Below are positions 4,034 to 30,296 of a stretch of DNA of 35,803 bases, in pieces (position 1 is the first letter of the stretch; each line of letters starts with the position of its first letter). The stretch lies in IMG/VR virus record IMGVR_UViG_3300032224_000826, positions 1 through 35,803 of that record. One strand, 5' to 3'. This stretch comes from a virus. The notes below the pieces were generated by a model. That model made no database searches. It had not been told where the DNA came from and worked only from the letters and a program-made list of their open reading frames with translations. A program made the position numbers and the translations under genes.

Positions 4034-4779
4034 TGCGCTGGTACGCGATGCACAATCAGTTTCTGAGCGACGAAAAGATCGAAGTCGTGGGCGAAGAATT
4101 CGGCCCGGTAGGGCCGCTGATCGCTGTAGCGCTTATGGCTCGCGCCAGCACGCTGGGCGAAGGTGGCGCTGTTCACGGCACCTATCGCGATATGGCGCAC
4201 GACTGCTACGTGAAAGACCGTGACGTGGTCGAGTCGGTCATAAAGCGCCTGATCGACGTCGGTTTTCTCGCAGGTGAAGCGAACGGTCGCGGCTACGCCT
4301 GCACGATTGAAAACTGGTCGAAATGGCAGGCGGCTTTCAGGCAGGCGAAGGCGCGTGAGCAGAAAAAGTCACGCTGTGTCACAGGCGAGTCACGGTCTGT
4401 CACAGACCTGTCACGGAAAGTCACTAACAAGACAAGACAAGACAAGACAAGACAAACAGAGACTAAGCGTCTAGAAGTCGAGCGCGTGTATAACGCGTGG
4501 GTACGTGCGACAGGTAAGTCACGCACGAAGCTGACGAAGTCTCGATCTGACCTGATACGGCGTCGGCTAGATGAATGGTCGACAGATGACTTGATCGCAG
4601 CGGTTGAAGGCATCGCCGCTTCGCCATTCCACAGGGGCGAGAATCCTGCGCACCGCGAATACCTGTCAATCGAGCTGGCGCTGCGCGACGCTGAGCATAT
4701 CGAACGCTTCATCGACGAATCTAAGGGCGCGGCTGCAGCGAAGAAGCCGAATCCGTTTCTAAGTGATGCCGGTGAATAA
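4033..4779 (+). CDS. Replication initiator / DnaD-like replisome organiser
   Basis: The 248-residue protein has an N-terminal winged-helix-like domain (MHNQFLSDEKIEVVGEEFGP... through VGFLAGEANGRG and WSKWQAAFRQAKAREQKK). A low-complexity linker follows with three 7-residue units, SRCVTGE, SRSVTDL and SRKVTNK, then a TRQDK repeat. The C-terminal domain (about residues 150-248) resembles DnaD/replisome-organiser modules (RRRLDEWSTDDLIAAVEGIA...NPAHREYLSIELAL). The linker is the protein reading of a DNA iteron array, so the origin probably lies within the gene, as with lambda O. Next comes a DnaB-like ATPase. GTG start with 1-base overlap of the preceding stop. Confidence 0.8.
   Translation: MRWYAMHNQFLSDEKIEVVGEEFGPVGPLIAVALMARASTLGEGGAVHGTYRDMAHDCYVKDRDVVESVIKRLIDVGFLAGEANGRGYACTIENWSKWQAAFRQAKAREQKKSRCVTGESRSVTDLSRKVTNKTRQDKTRQTETKRLEVERVYNAWVRATGKSRTKLTKSRSDLIRRRLDEWSTDDLIAAVEGIAASPFHRGENPAHREYLSIELALRDAEHIERFIDESKGAAAAKKPNPFLSDAGE
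4368..4455 (+). other. Candidate replication origin: phased iterons plus GACAA repeats
   Basis: GTCAC occurs at 4368, 4378, 4389, 4399, 4410 and 4420, spaced 10, 11, 10, 11 and 10 bases, so all copies face one side of the helix. They form three 21-bp units. Two centres are palindromic (CTGTG-T-CACAG and GTCTGT-C-ACAGAC). Immediately after come five tandem GACAA units (4431-4455), preceded by a related AACAA at 4426; this segment is GC-poor with strand asymmetry and is a good candidate unwinding element. Location inside an initiator gene follows the lambdoid arrangement. Confidence 0.72.
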
Positions 4780-5731: not shown

Positions 5732-5865
5732 GCGTTGAAGGCGCAGCGAAGGCGCTTCGACTAGTGCTGGCTGCTCGATCACCTGACCAGCTGGTGAAGG
5801 TAAAGGTTCTAAAGGGCACGAAAAAGACGCCCCGCAGGGCGCCTGATTCGAAGCTTGCTGCTTAG
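5728..5865 (+). CDS. Small basic hypothetical protein (45 aa), overlaps a terminator
   Basis: GTG at 5728 overlaps the helicase stop. The 45 residues contain a helix (VEGAAKALRLVLAARSPDQL) followed by a Lys/Arg-rich tail that is encoded by the hairpin of the convergent minus-strand terminator (5826-5843). The 5' part looks real; the 3' part may just be read-through of terminator DNA. Similar residues (EGTKKAPRRAPKS) appear if the terminator at 20490 is translated, showing that this tail reflects the repeat and is not a protein constraint. Confidence 0.4.
   Translation: MSVEGAAKALRLVLAARSPDQLVKVKVLKGTKKTPRRAPDSKLAA
5826..5843 (-). terminator. Minus-strand intrinsic terminator (GGCGCC family)
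   Basis: Read on the minus strand this is a 7-bp stem GGCGCCC/GGGCGUC (one G-U pair) with a 4-base loop, followed at once by five U residues. It lies just downstream of the minus gene 5877-6200. The same hairpin core follows the other minus-strand cassettes. Confidence 0.8.
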
Positions 5866-6201: not shown

Positions 6202-6269
6202 TCTGTAATTCCTTTCTCTAGCTGACTGATTGACACCATCAGTGTAGCACACTGCTACACAAAATGCAC
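6202..6269 (-). promoter_or_regulatory. Shared cassette promoter-operator, copy 1
   Basis: On the minus strand there is a weak -35 (GTGCAT, 6264-6269), a 17-base spacer and an extended -10, TGCTACACT (-10 hexamer 6241-6246). A perfect 19-bp inverted repeat, GTGTAGC-N5-GCTACAC (6242-6260), overlaps the -10. A leader with the TCAGCTAG core and an AGAAAGGA ribosome site follows. The same arrangement recurs at five other places. Confidence 0.85.
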
Positions 6270-6311: not shown

Positions 6312-7760
6312 TCACGCCTGCAGATCGACGTCGCTTCTGATCGTCACCCAGTCAATAGGCGCCGCTGGCGCTGCTTTATGGCCCTGACCGGGCACGTCTT
6401 CGTCAGGCGTTGACAGCTTCACGCGTGTTTCAAGCGGCACGCCGCGTCCGCGCTTGACCCACACAGACCCGATAGTGCCGACGATGACCTGACGACGCTC
6501 GATCACGGTCAGCGAGGGCCAGACGTCGTCAATGCCGCCAGAAAATACAGGTAATTCAGGCCCACGCGCTGCCTGTAGGTCACGTCGAGCAGTCTCGACG
6601 GCATCTGATCGCTGACGCAGACCACTGGCGAAGACTTCAGCGGCTACACCAGATGCCTGCGTGCCTTCGATGAATGCTGCCAGCTCAGTTTCTGCTTCGG
6701 TCAGTCTGGCTTCAAGCGCTGCCAATTCGTCGCGCTGCTGCGTAGTCTCGATGTGCAGTCGATCACGCAGGTATGCCAGCACCGAATCTTCGACCAGTGC
6801 TTCTATCTGCGGCTGCGATACCCACGCAGCATCGGTGCAGTGCTGGTGTGCGTGGTAGCGCTTGCACTTGTAAGCACGCTGACCGCGATAGACGCTCATA
6901 AGGCGTTGACAGCCTGCGCATCTGACCAGACCTGCCAGCAGCACCGGCTGCGAGTCTGGATTACGAGCAGGGCGCGTGCCTTTCGCCTGCTGCGCGGCGT
7001 TCCACAGATCGACTTCGATAATGGCTTCATGCGCTTCTAGATTCGGCGTGAACGGCTTTAGGTGTAGCTCGCCCAGATAGACGCGATTTCGCACGACTGA
7101 TCTTGCACCGTTCGGTGACTTGCCTATCACTGTGCCGACGTCAACCCACGACCCGCCAGCTGCGCGAAGCTCGAAGGCTTTCCTGACCAGTTTCGCCGCT
7201 GCCTTATCAGGCTTCAGCTTGCCGTCGCCACCATCGCGAACGCGCTTGACCTGATAACCGAACGGCACCTGCGAGCCGACTAGCAGGCCACGTTCTAGCG
7301 CCTGCTTTTTTGCGTCGCTGAATTGCGCGCTGTAGCGGTCGCGCTGCATCGCACCGATTGACAGCATTAGCGTTCGACTCAGGTTGCCTTCTGGTGTACC
7401 GGCGTCGAAGTTTTCGGCCACCGAAATTACCTGACCACCGTAGCCTTCAATGCGTTCGATGATCTTCAGCGCGTCGACTACGGCCATACGCGACAGCCGG
7501 TCAAGCTGAGCCACGATCAGACCTGCGTAGCGACCTTCGGCAATATCGTCGATGGCTCGATCAAGAATCGGCCTGCTGGTGCGTGCGCCTGAAACGTCTA
7601 GCTCTGGGTCAAGCATTTCGACGCTCAGACCACGCGCTGCTGCGTAGCCTTGAATGCGTTCAGCCTGTAATTCAGGTGAAATTAGCGTTTCTTCCCTGTC
7701 GCCTACTCGCGACACGCGCCGGTATCCTGCCCACGTTTTTACGTCCGAAGTGCCTGACAC
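6312..7760 (-). CDS. int: Large serine recombinase (phage integrase)
   Basis: The 482-residue protein shows the full large-serine-recombinase layout. The N-terminal resolvase domain carries the catalytic Ser in WAGYRRVSR (Ser17) and GLIVAQLDRLSR. A recombinase domain with PFGYQVKRV and VYLGELHL follows, then a zinc ribbon CAGC...CKRYHAHQHC (about residues 285-310). A coiled-coil segment (QRDELAALEARLTEAETEL) and a C-terminal tail come last. GTG at 7760 is chosen because GAAAGGA precedes it at good spacing and the resolvase domain begins there; an upstream ATG at 7853 would add about 31 unrelated residues. It catalyses attP x attB integration. It sits in reverse orientation between the helicase and primase genes. 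Confidence 0.95.
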   Translation of the reverse strand: MSGTSDVKTWAGYRRVSRVGDREETLISPELQAERIQGYAAARGLSVEMLDPELDVSGARTSRPILDRAIDDIAEGRYAGLIVAQLDRLSRMAVVDALKIIERIEGYGGQVISVAENFDAGTPEGNLSRTLMLSIGAMQRDRYSAQFSDAKKQALERGLLVGSQVPFGYQVKRVRDGGDGKLKPDKAAAKLVRKAFELRAAGGSWVDVGTVIGKSPNGARSVVRNRVYLGELHLKPFTPNLEAHEAIIEVDLWNAAQQAKGTRPARNPDSQPVLLAGLVRCAGCQRLMSVYRGQRAYKCKRYHAHQHCTDAAWVSQPQIEALVEDSVLAYLRDRLHIETTQQRDELAALEARLTEAETELAAFIEGTQASGVAAEVFASGLRQRSDAVETARRDLQAARGPELPVFSGGIDDVWPSLTVIERRQVIVGTIGSVWVKRGRGVPLETRVKLSTPDEDVPGQGHKAAPAAPIDWVTIRSDVDLQA

Positions 7761-7773
7761 GATTTCCTTTCTG

Positions 7774-8484
7774 ATGATCGCCCCCGTCGGTACACAGACT
7801 GTACCTAGTCGCAGCGACAGTTCTAGCGCTGCTGCTAGACCCAGTGTAGACACACCTGCGCGTGAATACCTTCGCGGCCACGCTGTCGACCTGAATCTGG
7901 CAGCCGAAGTAGGCGTGACGGCTGACGACTACTCGATCAGTTTCCCGTATGCACGCGCTGACGGCAGCCACTATTACAGGCGTCGCACGTTTAGCGATGG
8001 CATCTGCCGACAGCCGAAGGGCGAATTACTTTCAATGTTCTGGCCGCTGGGCGTCGGTGCTCGCGTGCCAGTCATTCTGTGCGAAGGCGAAGCCGACACG
8101 CTAGCCGCTGCAAGCGTGGTCGATTCGTCAGATCACCCGCTGCTTTCTGATCTGTGCCCTGTCGGTGTACCCGGCGCCAGCTTCCCGGCCACGCGTGTAG
8201 CGCGTGACTTGCGTGCAGCTGGTGTAGGCAGGGCATACGTCGTATTCGATGCTGACGAAGCCGGTCGCAAGGCGACGGCGCGTGTATCTGCTGAGCTTGA
8301 ACGTAAGGCGATAGGTGTCGTGCCAGTCGAGCTACCCGACGGCACAGATCTTTCTGACTTTCTGGTCGCCGCAGATAACCGCGAAGAAGCACTGGGCAAC
8401 CTGCTCGCTGACTTTCTGATTGTGCGCGACGAAGCAGCAGGTGCGCTGGCTGCTCAGTCAGTACGCGAAAGGTTGCAGCGATGA
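7774..8484 (+). CDS. TOPRIM-domain primase-like protein
   Basis: The 236-residue product has AREYLRGHAVDLNLAAEVGV (residues 29-48), as in DnaG-type primase relatives, then VILCEGEADTLAAASV (the TOPRIM Glu) and AYVVFDADEAGRKA (the TOPRIM DxD). It ends with a D-L-S-D-F-L motif (PDGTDLSDFL) typical of primase/helicase TOPRIM regions. It lacks an N-terminal zinc domain and the helicase half, which is supplied by the separate gene at 4763. ATG 7774 is 13 bases from the divergent integrase start; no strong ribosome site is visible, and a longer in-frame start at 7654 would lie within integrase coding sequence. Confidence 0.85.
   Translation: MIAPVGTQTVPSRSDSSSAAARPSVDTPAREYLRGHAVDLNLAAEVGVTADDYSISFPYARADGSHYYRRRTFSDGICRQPKGELLSMFWPLGVGARVPVILCEGEADTLAAASVVDSSDHPLLSDLCPVGVPGASFPATRVARDLRAAGVGRAYVVFDADEAGRKATARVSAELERKAIGVVPVELPDGTDLSDFLVAADNREEALGNLLADFLIVRDEAAGALAAQSVRERLQR
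7789..7805. repeat. Inverted repeat beside the integrase start (candidate attP core or operator)
   Basis: GGTACA-CAGAC-TGTACC is a perfect 6-bp inverted repeat with a 5-base centre, 29 bases upstream of the integrase start codon. Serine integrase attP sites are short, partly symmetric and usually abut int, so this is a candidate attP centre. An operator controlling int is an equally good reading. It lies inside the 5' end of the primase gene. Confidence 0.45.
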
Positions 8485-8972
8485 CCGAAGCAGTCTGTTT
8501 TTTCGCTGACGTCGATGACAAGCCCTGCGACCGCACAATCTTCGACCGCGCGCACCTGATCGAAAAGCAGGTTATGCGCATAAAGAATCTGCCTCGCGAC
8601 GTGATCTGGGACGAACGCTGCTCGGTAGTCGCGTGTCGAGCGCACCACCACCGCTTCGACCATCGCTTCATCGAGCTTCAGCGTGACGAAATACCGCTGG
8701 ACACCGAACGCTTCGCACACGAATACGGGCTGACTAGCTACCTAGATAGGCGCTATGGCCCGCTGACCATTCGCTGCCGCGCGCAGCGCGTGTCTGGCTG
8801 TCACCAGATCGAAGGCTACAGCTGCGACGAAATTTACGGGCTAGACGGTATGCCCGAAGATCGCACCTACGACCCGAAGACGATGACGGTCGTGTGCAAC
8901 GCCTGCTACGTCGATCTGGGCTGCCCGAAGTTTTCTGACTTGCGCGAGCTAGAAAGCATCTTGCGCGGGTGA
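8481..8972 (+). CDS. HNH-like endonuclease (163 aa)
   Basis: The protein has a zinc-knuckle HNH arrangement: FDRAHLIEKQ (about residues 22-31), then WDERCSVVACRAHHHRFDHRFI (45-66), giving the His-x(n)-His-His-His-x-x-(D/H) core. A second Cys-rich unit (RCRAQRVSGCHQIEGY and VCNACYVDLGCP) could bind another zinc. HNH proteins nick or cut DNA; in phages they act in packaging, homing or recombination. ATGA overlap with the primase indicates the same operon. Confidence 0.72.
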   Translation: MTEAVCFFADVDDKPCDRTIFDRAHLIEKQVMRIKNLPRDVIWDERCSVVACRAHHHRFDHRFIELQRDEIPLDTERFAHEYGLTSYLDRRYGPLTIRCRAQRVSGCHQIEGYSCDEIYGLDGMPEDRTYDPKTMTVVCNACYVDLGCPKFSDLRELESILRG

Positions 8973-9073
8973 ACGCGTGCAGCGAATGCGGCGGTCTGCT
9001 GGTGCAGGCTGGTGACGGTCACGTCTGCGCGTCCTGCGGTCTGCGCTTTAGGGGCGACACGTGCACGCGCTAG
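8969..9073 (+). CDS. Small zinc-ribbon protein (34 aa)
   Basis: GTG overlaps the HNH stop. The 34 residues contain two CxxCG knuckles (ACSECGGLL and VCASCGLRF) separated by a short turn, the signature of a minimal zinc ribbon. It overlaps the start of the next gene by 13 bases. The partner is unknown. Confidence 0.6.
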   Translation: MNACSECGGLLVQAGDGHVCASCGLRFRGDTCTR

Positions 9074-9714: not shown

Positions 9715-9803
9715 ATCCTGACGAAGCCGCAGGGCTGATCTTCGCCGCAGTTATGACCATCGTGCTGCTGATCGCTGTCGCATTCGGGCTGGGTACGATA
9801 TGA
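9711..9803 (+). CDS. Very small membrane peptide (30 aa)
   Basis: An ATGA overlap joins it to the lysozyme-like gene. It has one hydrophobic helix (AGLIFAAVMTIVLLIAVAFG) after a short acidic N-terminus. This frame is continuous with the -1 frame of the upstream gene from 9474, so it could alternatively be the membrane tail of a frameshifted product. No family is recognised. Confidence 0.5.
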   Translation: MNPDEAAGLIFAAVMTIVLLIAVAFGLGTI

Positions 9804-10057
9804 GCAAGCGAAAGACGGCATCGCGCAAGGCAATAAAGAAGCAGCCACTGACGCGACGCTACGTAATTGTGAACGTTGAAAGCGGTCGCGAAGTGTATGG
9901 CGCTGACCCACGTAGATACGACTCGATGTTCGAATGGGGAATGCCGCTTGAACAGGCTGAACGCTGGGTGAAAAACCTGAAGCACCCGTCGAAGATCGTA
10001 CCTGCAGACGAGCACTACGGCATACCTAACCCAGAAGACCTAATGGCCGATGATTGA
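9800..10057 (+). CDS. Small basic hypothetical protein (85 aa)
   Basis: ATGA overlap with the preceding peptide. The N-terminal 20 residues are very basic (SKRKTASRKAIKKQPLTRR), followed by a compact mixed domain (YVIVNVESGREVYGADPRRY; PLEQAERWVKNLKHPSKIV) and an acidic C-terminus. The basic head suggests nucleic-acid binding. It is directly upstream of the Mom-like gene but has no similarity to the Mu Com regulator. Confidence 0.65.
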   Translation: MSKRKTASRKAIKKQPLTRRYVIVNVESGREVYGADPRRYDSMFEWGMPLEQAERWVKNLKHPSKIVPADEHYGIPNPEDLMADD

Positions 10058-10078
10058 CCGCGACCTACAGGCCCGCAT

Positions 10079-10864
10079 ATGATGGCGCACGAAAATAAGC
10101 TGCGGCTTGACGGTTCGGCAGCGCCAATTTATAGCTCGCAGGAATCCCTATTAGGTGAACCCGAAGTTGTCGGCTGGCGAAAGGGCGATCTTGCTGTTGA
10201 AGAAATCGACCGCGATATTGCTAACGAAATTATTCGTCAAAATCACTATTCGGGCAAGATTTATAAGGGCACGTATCTTCACTATGGCGCGTTTTGGCGC
10301 GGCGAATTGGTCGGAATTGCGCAGTACGGCTATGCGATGAATCCGGCGTCGCAGGAAAGCGTTGTTTCGGGTACCAAATTGAATGAATACTTGGAGCTGA
10401 ATCGTTTGTGGGTCGACGATTCGATGCCGAAAAATAGTGAATCGGCGTTGCTAGCGCTAACACTACGTGTCATCAAGGCGACAACGCGGGTCAAGTGGAT
10501 TCAGTCGTTTGCCGATGAGCGATGTCGTTTGTTTGGAGCCGTGTATCAGGCCTGCTCATTTCTTTATTGCGGCGAACACACTGCGACGTTTTGGGAAGTT
10601 GAAGGCACTTGGTTTCACAATTCGCTGATGAGCCGCGACCCAAGCCTGACACCGAAGGCACGCTTCTTGCAGGAAAACAAACACAGGGCGACGCCTTACA
10701 ACCTTCGTCAGTTTCGGTATTTAAAGTTTCTTGACCCAAGCTACCGAAGCAAGTTGCAGCTCAAAACCTACCCGTACCCCAAACCCGATGCGGAAGGCGT
10801 AGAAGAAACGAACCCTGCAAACCAGCAGGGCAGTGTCGGTGCGATGCCGACCCTCCGCTCCTAG
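10079..10864 (+). CDS. mom-like: Mom-like adenine modification protein (GNAT fold)
   Basis: The 261-residue protein has the Mom family pattern: IANEIIRQNHYSGK near residue 48 (the conserved NHYSG), YLHYGAFWRGELVGIAQYGY, then YLELNRLWVDDSMPKNSESA (about 106-125). IQSFADERCRLFGAVYQACSF and YCGEHTATFW follow. In phage Mu, Mom converts adenine to N6-carbamoylmethyladenine and protects DNA from restriction. Base composition is clearly less GC-rich than in the flanking genes (many AAT, ATT, TTT codons), indicating recent acquisition. No strong ribosome site precedes ATG 10079 or 10082. The C-terminus extends past the domain with a Pro/Tyr-rich tail. Confidence 0.85.
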   Translation: MMAHENKLRLDGSAAPIYSSQESLLGEPEVVGWRKGDLAVEEIDRDIANEIIRQNHYSGKIYKGTYLHYGAFWRGELVGIAQYGYAMNPASQESVVSGTKLNEYLELNRLWVDDSMPKNSESALLALTLRVIKATTRVKWIQSFADERCRLFGAVYQACSFLYCGEHTATFWEVEGTWFHNSLMSRDPSLTPKARFLQENKHRATPYNLRQFRYLKFLDPSYRSKLQLKTYPYPKPDAEGVEETNPANQQGSVGAMPTLRS

Positions 10865-11482
10865 ATGACCGATAAAGAATTACAAGCGCGCATACGATCA
10901 GTCCTGACGCAGCTGCAGATGCTGTCAGATGTCGATTCAGCGTCAATCGTGGCGAATGACGGTGGCGGTCAGTCGAAGCCTGATAGCTCGCCACCACCGG
11001 GCAGCAGACCAGATCGAGACAGCACGCAGCCACCACCTAAAGACCGAAGCCTTTACGAATGGTATGCCTATCACTTCGCACGCGCCAGCGATGACGAAAG
11101 GCGCAGGCTGCTGTGTTATCTGGCTGAGCGCGACCACGCGAAGGCTAAGGGTCGAAGCCCGCAGCCACGCGGCAAGACCGGCCCAGAAGACGAGCGCGCA
11201 TCTATGGCACGCATCGTCGAATGGTATGAAGGCGTGCAAGACCTAGAAGTCGCAGTGCTTGAAGCGTGCAGCGTTCAATTCGTCGCGAAGGCTCGACGCG
11301 TGCATAAGCGCAGACCGAAAGACGGCACGCTGCCTTCGGTCTTCATATCGCTAGACGAACCGTCACGGCACGCGACTGTGGCTACTCTCGCGCTCGCAGG
11401 TGAATCGAAGGCTGGCGCGGCTCGACGGCTTGACGTGTCGCGTAAGACCATCGACCGATACTGGCCCGTCGAAGCTGCCTGA
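10865..11482 (+). CDS. Putative small terminase subunit / HTH protein (205 aa)
   Basis: ATG follows the Mom-like stop with no gap. Residues 1-25 are helical, 35-60 are Pro/Asp/Ser-rich linker, then a helical domain (YEWYAYHFARASDDERRRLL). The C-terminal 50 residues hold an HTH (VATLALAGESKAGAARRLDV, then SRKTIDRYW). A DNA-binding HTH protein a short way upstream of TerL is the expected place for a small terminase subunit, though in that family the HTH is usually N-terminal. A transcription-regulator role is the alternative. Base composition returns to the genome norm here. Confidence 0.55.
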   Translation: MTDKELQARIRSVLTQLQMLSDVDSASIVANDGGGQSKPDSSPPPGSRPDRDSTQPPPKDRSLYEWYAYHFARASDDERRRLLCYLAERDHAKAKGRSPQPRGKTGPEDERASMARIVEWYEGVQDLEVAVLEACSVQFVAKARRVHKRRPKDGTLPSVFISLDEPSRHATVATLALAGESKAGAARRLDVSRKTIDRYWPVEAA

Positions 11483-11569: not shown

Positions 11570-11620
11570 ACACGCCGCGCGCGCCCCCTTTCTCGCAGAC
11601 GCGGCAGGCGTCGTAGTGGA

Positions 11621-12043
11621 ATGGCACCACGTCGGCCACACCAGCCGAAGAAGCCCGTTCGATTCGGGTCGACGCCACTACCGATCACCACGACTATGCC
11701 ACGCGCAACTATCTGTCTTGAATGCGGCAGGCTAATCAGTCGCGGCCCACGCTGCCCTACCTGCGTGAAGGCTCGACAGGATAAGCACAACGCCGACACC
11801 AGCTTCTACCGTTCACCTGAATGGCGAAGGCTGCGCAGCATAGTCACACGTGATGGCTGCATCGTCTGTGGCACCCACGACCACGTGATCGCACACCACG
11901 TCGTACCACGTGCAGAAGGCGGGACTGACACCATAGAGAACCTGCGACCACTGTGCGTGCGACACCATAATCAGATCGAAGCAGACCTACGTGCAGGCAG
12001 ACAGTCACCACTACGCACACTGGTCGAAGGCACCGACTACTAA
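11621..12043 (+). CDS. HNH endonuclease next to terminase
   Basis: Two zinc knuckles (CLECGRL and CPTCVK) precede a canonical HNH core: YRSPEWRRLRSIVTRDGCIV, CGTHDHVIAHHVVPRAEGGT, and ENLRPLCVRHHNQIEADL. This gives His-His...Asn...His with CxxC zinc support. HNH proteins encoded just upstream of TerL are required with terminase for cos cleavage in several phages. ATG 11621 gives 140 residues; ATG 11696 gives 115 and starts directly at the conserved part. Neither has a strong ribosome site. Confidence 0.88.
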   Translation: MAPRRPHQPKKPVRFGSTPLPITTTMPRATICLECGRLISRGPRCPTCVKARQDKHNADTSFYRSPEWRRLRSIVTRDGCIVCGTHDHVIAHHVVPRAEGGTDTIENLRPLCVRHHNQIEADLRAGRQSPLRTLVEGTDY

Positions 12044-20473: not shown

Positions 20474-20489
20474 TCGAAGGCACGAAAAA

Positions 20490-20507
20490 GGCGCCCCGTA
20501 GGGCGCC
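20490..20507 (-). terminator. Minus-strand terminator (GGCGCC family)
   Basis: On the minus strand the stem GGCGCCC/GGGCGCC (7 bp, loop TACG) is followed by TTTTTCG. It lies 26 bases beyond the stop of the minus gene 20534-20737 and 16 bases after the tail-tube stop, so it may also affect plus-strand read-through. Confidence 0.82.
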
Positions 20508-20533
20508 TAAGTCGCTGCAGCTGGTATTTCTCG

Positions 20534-20743: not shown

Positions 20744-20805
20744 TGTGTACCTTTCTGTTAGCTGACTGATGCTAAAAGCGTAGCACACTGCTACACCATC
20801 TGCAG
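20744..20805 (-). promoter_or_regulatory. Shared cassette promoter-operator, copy 2
   Basis: Minus strand: a -35-like CTGCAG (20800-20805), a 17-base spacer and the extended -10 TGCTACGCT (hexamer at 20777-20782). The operator GTGTAGC-N5-GCTACGC occupies 20778-20796 and differs from perfect symmetry at one base. The leader has the TCAGTCAGCTAAC core and AGAAAGG. Confidence 0.82.
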
Positions 20806-20820
20806 TGCGCCCACGAAAAA

Positions 20821-20836
20821 GGCGCCCGAAGGCGCC
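20821..20836 (-). terminator. Terminator with UUCG tetraloop (GGCGCC family)
   Basis: On the minus strand it reads GGCGCC-TTCG-GGCGCC-TTTTTCG: a 6-bp stem capped by a C(UUCG)G loop and followed by U residues. Flanking ACGAAA and TTTCGT can extend the stem, so it could work in both directions. It follows the minus gene 20860-21057. Confidence 0.85.
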
Positions 20837-20859
20837 TGTTTCGTAAGGCTTGACGAAGA

Positions 20860-21057
20860 CTAAAGCAGCCCGTCTTCTTTTAGGTACTCAATGACGCGCT
20901 CATACTGATCGTAGTCACAGTTGCGTACCAGCTTGCCGACGCTTTCAGCCGTCGTGCTGTCGCCGTCAGCGCGCCACCGGGCGACCTGATCTGGGTCATT
21001 CATCTTGGTGTATTTGCCGACTGCCTTATCAAGTTGCGCCTGCGTGTATTTGGTCAT
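20860..21057 (-). CDS. Cassette gene: 65-aa protein, paralogue of 34039-34236
   Basis: The ATG at 21057 lies ten bases after AGAAAGG. The 65 residues include DPDQVARWRADGDSTTAE and GKLVRNCDYDQYERVIEYL. The product aligns end to end and without gaps with the protein at 34039-34236, with roughly four fifths of positions identical. The helical, Asp/Arg-rich sequence resembles no family I can name. Duplication within the phage, along with its promoter, is the likely origin. Confidence 0.82.
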   Translation of the reverse strand: MTKYTQAQLDKAVGKYTKMNDPDQVARWRADGDSTTAESVGKLVRNCDYDQYERVIEYLKEDGLL

Positions 21058-21062
21058 TTTGC

Positions 21063-21127
21063 AATTACCTTTCTGTAGCTGACTGACTTACAAGAAGAAG
21101 CGTAGCAGATGGCTACACAGTGTGCAA
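21063..21127 (-). promoter_or_regulatory. Shared cassette promoter-operator, copy 3
   Basis: Minus strand: TTGCAC (-35, 21122-21127), a 17-base spacer and the extended -10 TGCTACGCT (hexamer at 21099-21104). The operator GTGTAGC-N5-GCTACGC occupies 21100-21118 with one asymmetry. The leader has TAAGTCAGTCAGCTACAGAAAGG. It has one of the two best -35 boxes of the family. Confidence 0.85.
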
Positions 21128-30231: not shown

Positions 30232-30296
30232 TATACCTTTCTGTTAGCTGACTGACTTACAAGAAGAAGTGTAGCAGATGACTACACCGTGTGCAA
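30232..30296 (-). promoter_or_regulatory. Shared cassette promoter-operator, copy 4
   Basis: Minus strand: TTGCAC (30291-30296), a 17-base spacer and the extended -10 TGCTACACT (hexamer at 30268-30273). The operator GTGTAGT-N5-GCTACAC (30269-30287) has one asymmetric base. The leader is nearly identical to that of copy 3. Confidence 0.85.

Follow-up and report, generated by a model that had tools for sequence, protein, structure and literature searches.

Phage Mu protects its DNA from cutting by bacterial restriction enzymes through Mom, an enzyme that masks adenines chemically. The group that the Mu enzyme adds to adenine N6 is of the glycinamide (carbamoylmethyl) type. Passages of PMC4461284 state the anti-restriction phenotype of Mom and describe early or high mom expression as harmful in Mu, and one of the references that it lists calls the Mu nucleoside an N-purinyl glycinamide. 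Beyond Mu, Mom has been annotated in many phages, and a gene of this kind is therefore ordinary when taken alone.

Our study analysed a window of 35,803 bp, the virus record IMGVR_UViG_3300032224_000826 of IMG/VR, in which mom occupies positions 10079-10864 on the plus strand. Homology, fold and conserved residues are common to its product and to Mu Mom (NC_000929 Mup55; PDB 8bv8; PF25680). Unlike in Mu, the gene has neither Com nor the overlapping com-mom arrangement and is placed, in an unrelated phage, between genes for replication and genes for packaging, while its product differs from Mu Mom by an extra C-terminal tail and by a long, separate branch. We consider it probable that the phage recently captured a Mom modification enzyme as a single gene, through a 10-bp repeat, with coupled translation and with shielding of its DNA at adenine N6.

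Mom-family proteins of other phages were also compared. Those of 80 metagenomic phages from IMG/VR (L002-L081) are 49-56% identical to the window protein and present the same conserved core; across these 80 loci we identified no shared cassette or neighbour genes beyond weak similarities, namely those of terminase, portal and HNH genes to the window neighbourhood in L021, L041 and L045. Actinobacterial phages also have Mom-family members: Liebe and MaGuCo, which infect Arthrobacter, and BarnCat, which infects Microbacterium. The Liebe protein is already annotated as Mom-like, and those of MaGuCo and BarnCat are annotated as acetyltransferases. Their identity to the window protein is 27-37% and they belong to other, well separated branches, so none of them is an evident donor. 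In Actinomycetota genomes, 3 of 396 gave a Mom match over the cut-off and 6 of 396 at E<=0.001, and the two genomes with strong matches reach no more than 25-26% identity to the window protein.

The phage and its genome

The window record carries an exact terminal direct repeat of 123 bp, and for this reason it is probably a complete genome. It encodes a serine integrase and a terminase with kin among actinophages and others, its capsid has relatives of 44-46% identity in two actinobacterial contigs (Planobispora and Mycolicibacterium), and its gene order, in what the initial annotation had taken for a standard early operon, runs from primase to mom, HNH and terminase. The phage is likely temperate and tailed, with an actinobacterial host. 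Relatives of the integrase, sought in genome contigs as a clue to the host, yielded none, and defence profiles run on ten window proteins gave no match.

Other elements of the window are reported here as separate observations. A palindrome close to GTAGCANNNNGCTACAC is present in six copies (6244-6260, 20780-20796, 21102-21118, 30271-30287, 33142-33158 and 34279-34295), and 13 strand matches were counted at up to 2 mismatches, against 0.92 expected. Each palindrome is embedded in a longer conserved repeat (about 40-80 bp); all lie between the open reading frames used and none is near mom, and they resemble promoter elements or the operators of a repressor. A G+C-rich hairpin-like repeat beside a run of A (GGCACGAAAAAGGCGCCC...) occurs four times, at 5815-5850, 20479-20514, 20808-20843 and 32783-32818, and these are probably terminators. 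The window also contains a 208-bp direct repeat whose copies, 78% identical, are located 13 kb apart (20851-21058 and 34030-34237), and a tRNA-Val gene with a CAC anticodon (11607-11678) between the DNA-binding gene and the HNH gene.

The mom product belongs to the Mom family

By its sequence, the 261-aa product of 10079-10864, an open reading frame with exact bounds, is a true Mom-family DNA modification enzyme of the GNAT fold. The PF25680 profile matches it over all of its 202 positions (1-202) with E=8.3e-63 and 212.1 bits, where the curated cut-off is 27.1; phrog_1384 ('Mom-like DNA modification protein') matches it with E=1.7e-52, the sequence of PDB 8bv8 (Mu Mom) with E=7.8e-51, and tblastn gives full-length homology to Mu Mom at 41.8% identity. 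The motifs on which the initial annotation had based its family assignment are NHYSG (residues 55-59), ELNRLWV (around R109), FADERC (144-149) and VYQA (155-158), and that assignment is borne out by these matches and by motif residues that do not vary: none of the 43 aligned Mom proteins departs from H56, Y57, S58, R109, D146, E147, R148, C149 or Y156, and S122 is present in 42 of the 43. The Mu residues H58, Y59, R111, S124 and D149 correspond to H56, Y57, R109, S122 and D146 of the window protein, and all of them are kept. We take the H, Y, R and D positions of Mu Mom to matter for activity, and the title of PDB 8bv8 describes an 'inactive mutant S124A', where S124 of Mu is S122 of the window protein.

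An AlphaFold2 model built from the 43 aligned sequences (pLDDT 82) predicts a fold that superposes on 8bv8 with a Z of 26.7 and an rmsd of 2.4 over 217 residues, against a Z of 12.9 for the next-best GNAT. Many ordinary GNATs recovered by Foldseek and VIA (Z about 11-13) were set aside as fold relatives only. From about residue 238 the C-terminal tail is disordered, with low pLDDT and poor conservation. In a tree of 57 rows the window protein forms a long branch (1.21) that has no supported relatives and stands separate from the Mu clade as well as from the Mom proteins of Arthrobacter and Microbacterium phages.

Anatomy of the insertion

The downstream protein, used as a query, led to a single close relative, the 36,211-bp contig L082, which aligns to the window at 91-93% identity on both flanks and lacks the mom segment. 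Neither a protein search nor the PF25680 model, which found the Mu positive control, detected mom anywhere in the L082 record. The net insertion in the window relative to L082 is 815 bp; its core, absent from L082, spans 10084-10888, and its ends can slide within a 10-bp direct repeat, CGCATANGAT, present at both ends of the insert (10074-10083 and 10889-10898). The target of the insertion is the downstream gene (g10865; 10865-11482, plus strand), which encodes a 205-aa DNA-binding protein of phrog_664 with a C-terminal helix-turn-helix. The upstream gene (9800-10057, plus strand) encodes 85 aa without a family match, and its last 8 bp are shared with the original start of the downstream gene, an arrangement also found in L082 and L088. 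Both neighbours of mom remain full length after the insertion.

The start of the downstream gene is thus present twice. On the left, 10050-10082 (plus strand) holds its first ten codons, close in sequence to L082 and now followed by a stop (MIDRDLQARI-stop); this remnant still has its native overlap of 8 bp with the upstream gene, which ends at 10057, and its TGA stop (10080-10082) overlaps the ATG of mom (10079-10081). On the right, directly after the mom stop, 10865-10891 (plus strand) is a heavily recoded version of the first nine codons (MTDKELQAR), so that the restarted gene begins MTDKELQARIR. This right-hand copy contains a TTA codon, used for 3 of the 723 leucines in 31 other window genes, and the flank at 10883-11200 is 97.8% identical to L082.

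We infer that the recoded right-hand copy is derived from the donor. The incoming piece would have consisted of mom and, behind it, nine codons from the start of a donor gene that is akin to the downstream gene of the phage itself, and it would have been joined through the 10-bp repeat CGCATANGAT; the recipient's own start would have become a ten-codon leader, and the downstream gene would have been rebuilt behind mom. The simplest reading of the source is a phage in which mom precedes a related downstream gene. As a DNA pattern, the MTDKELQARI start had 0 matches in viral contigs, a wider start pattern recovered only the L082 contig, and no Mom protein over 56% identity was found.

A possible slot for modification genes, and the control of mom

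The interval between the Toprim primase-like gene (7654-8484, plus strand) and the downstream gene also contains DNA modification genes in relatives of the phage. In L088, an N6/N4 DNA methyltransferase (E=4.9e-33) is located between the primase and the homologue of the downstream gene, and the L090 record likewise has an N6/N4 DNA methyltransferase in this interval; the coordinates of the interval methyltransferases are 134-1408 in L088 and 33395-34120, on the minus strand, in the G043 contig. We detected no methyltransferase in the window or in L082. A third related record, G047, has a methyltransferase also. Like the window mom, those of L088 and L090 are genes for DNA modification on the stretch from the primase to the homologue of the downstream gene, but they belong to an unrelated enzyme family (PF01555). 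Among four phages with this gene order, a small sample, two carry a methyltransferase, a third has mom and the fourth lacks both, and the base position of the methyltransferases is not identical to that of mom. It is possible that the interval serves as a slot for such genes, in which Mom would hold the place of the DNA methyltransferases of related phages.

In the Mu-type operon, com lies immediately ahead of mom and overlaps it, an RNA structure at the mom start inhibits translation, and mom has a late promoter of its own, activated by C and under Dam/OxyR control. As to control in the window, the initial annotation had reported no Com-like regulator, and our searches agree: the Com profile (PF10122) had no match in the window at E<=10, and the Mu control was found at 1.2e-10. 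That annotation had deduced a control different from that of Mu; the notion that the absence of Com is a distinctive trait is weakened. Com is likewise missing from all 40 of the closest Mom-bearing records searched, which makes its absence in the window the usual condition, and it was not found in phages pAEv1818 and Liebe, with Mu again positive. Com looks like a speciality of the Mu type and not a general partner of Mom. On both strands, short reading frames bearing a pair of CxxC knuckles were also sought, and the sole candidate for a Com equivalent was a 34-aa zinc-ribbon mini-ORF with two CxxC pairs and a GTG start (8969-9073, plus strand), which is conserved in L082; it was rejected because L082 has no mom. 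A candidate promoter, TTGACC-18-TATGAT at 10054-10083, was discarded as well: the consensus scan gave 2 sites against 2.9 expected by chance, and its start site would land after the ATG of mom. The RNA fold at the mom start (z 0.49) is no more stable than simple shuffles.

The overlap between the leader stop and the mom ATG suggests that mom is probably coupled in translation to the ten-codon leader, and the gene would in this way be translated from the existing operon. A broader proposal joins both observations: the interval would be an exchangeable slot in which Mom replaced the methyltransferases, and the stop-start overlap of the leader would set the dose of a potentially toxic Mom instead of Com. 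We offer this proposal tentatively, as possible and rather doubtful.

Predicted activity and its chemistry

Under the recent-capture reading that we favour, the window Mom would add a glycinamide-type (carbamoylmethyl) group to adenine N6 in the phage DNA, and packaged genomes so modified would be shielded from host restriction. Family membership together with the kept catalytic residues is the reason for proposing this modification; the enzyme is probably active, the glycinamide-type group at N6 is its most likely product, and restriction shielding may be expected to follow from it. A Mu target motif was counted at 4292 of the 15014 A/T positions of the window, a figure that is uninformative.

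The long branch of the window protein indicates that its specificity could have shifted. It could also be proposed that this homologue no longer modifies DNA, or that it makes another product, differing in the acyl or aminoacyl group, in the base or in the site. The long terminal branch, an identity to Mu Mom of about 40% and a C-terminal tail that is poorly conserved and of low pLDDT would be compatible with such a change; however, every conserved residue tested is kept, the reading frame is unbroken and the fold model closely resembles 8bv8, and we regard a loss or change of activity as unlikely.

Composition and direction of the change

The initial annotation had described mom as clearly less rich in G+C than its neighbours, and this is correct. 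Among the window genes of at least 100 aa, mom has 51.4% GC and the 32 others 58.6 +/- 2.0% (z -3.6), the lowest value of the 33, although at third codon positions it is no outlier (57.6 vs 62.0%, z -0.84). Written in the phage's own codon use, the Mom protein would give 54.1% GC, so its amino-acid make-up explains over half of the deficit. Other mom genes are also below their flanks in GC, in 60 of 80 loci and by a mean of 2.2 points, and since this mild shortage of G+C is a general trait of mom, low GC by itself is weak evidence of gain; the window mom, 7 points below its surroundings, is at the strong end among these loci. Its synonymous codon choice is the most deviant of the 33 genes (z -4.6; the next is -2.9).

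The recent gain that had been deduced from base composition is supported independently of GC by the empty site in L082 and by an empty outgroup, and it agrees with the deviant codon use. The outgroup, L088, is a more distant relative (terminase 79%) that presents the same gene pair with the same 8-bp overlap and no mom between the two genes; its upstream partner was matched by position, with a similar start and size and no significant BLAST match. The PF25680 model found mom in none of the 11 terminase-related records, L082 and L088 included and some of them fragments, and it found the Mu control. The empty-site argument thus comprises one close relative and one outgroup, and it supports recent capture by the phage as a single-gene cassette.

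The opposite direction was also considered: mom would be ancestral at this site, and in L082 a recombination event involving the flanking repeats would have removed it. The insert does lie between imperfect direct repeats, which could also yield a clean deletion. Against such a loss, which we find very improbable, are the empty L088 with its 8-bp overlap, the absence of mom from 11 of 11 terminase relatives, the foreign codon use of mom, and the TTA codon of the right copy, nearly absent from the phage's genes. A last proposal, that Mom and the HNH nuclease encoded at 11621-12043, 0.8 kb downstream of mom, form a pair sparing phage DNA and attacking other DNA, as passages of PMC7824862 propose for jumbo-phage Mom-nuclease fusions, is hardly credible, given that the HNH gene adjoins the terminase in L082 and L088, which have no mom, and so has no tie to it.

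Implications

For a recent capture of mom the evidence is unusually clear: there are two nearly identical phages, one with the gene and one without it, and this pair gives a clean view of an anti-restriction gene entering an operon with its neighbours unbroken. In the same pair the effects of Mom can be compared under natural conditions, and a Mom carried without Com is relevant to the way in which phages other than Mu restrain a toxic modification gene.
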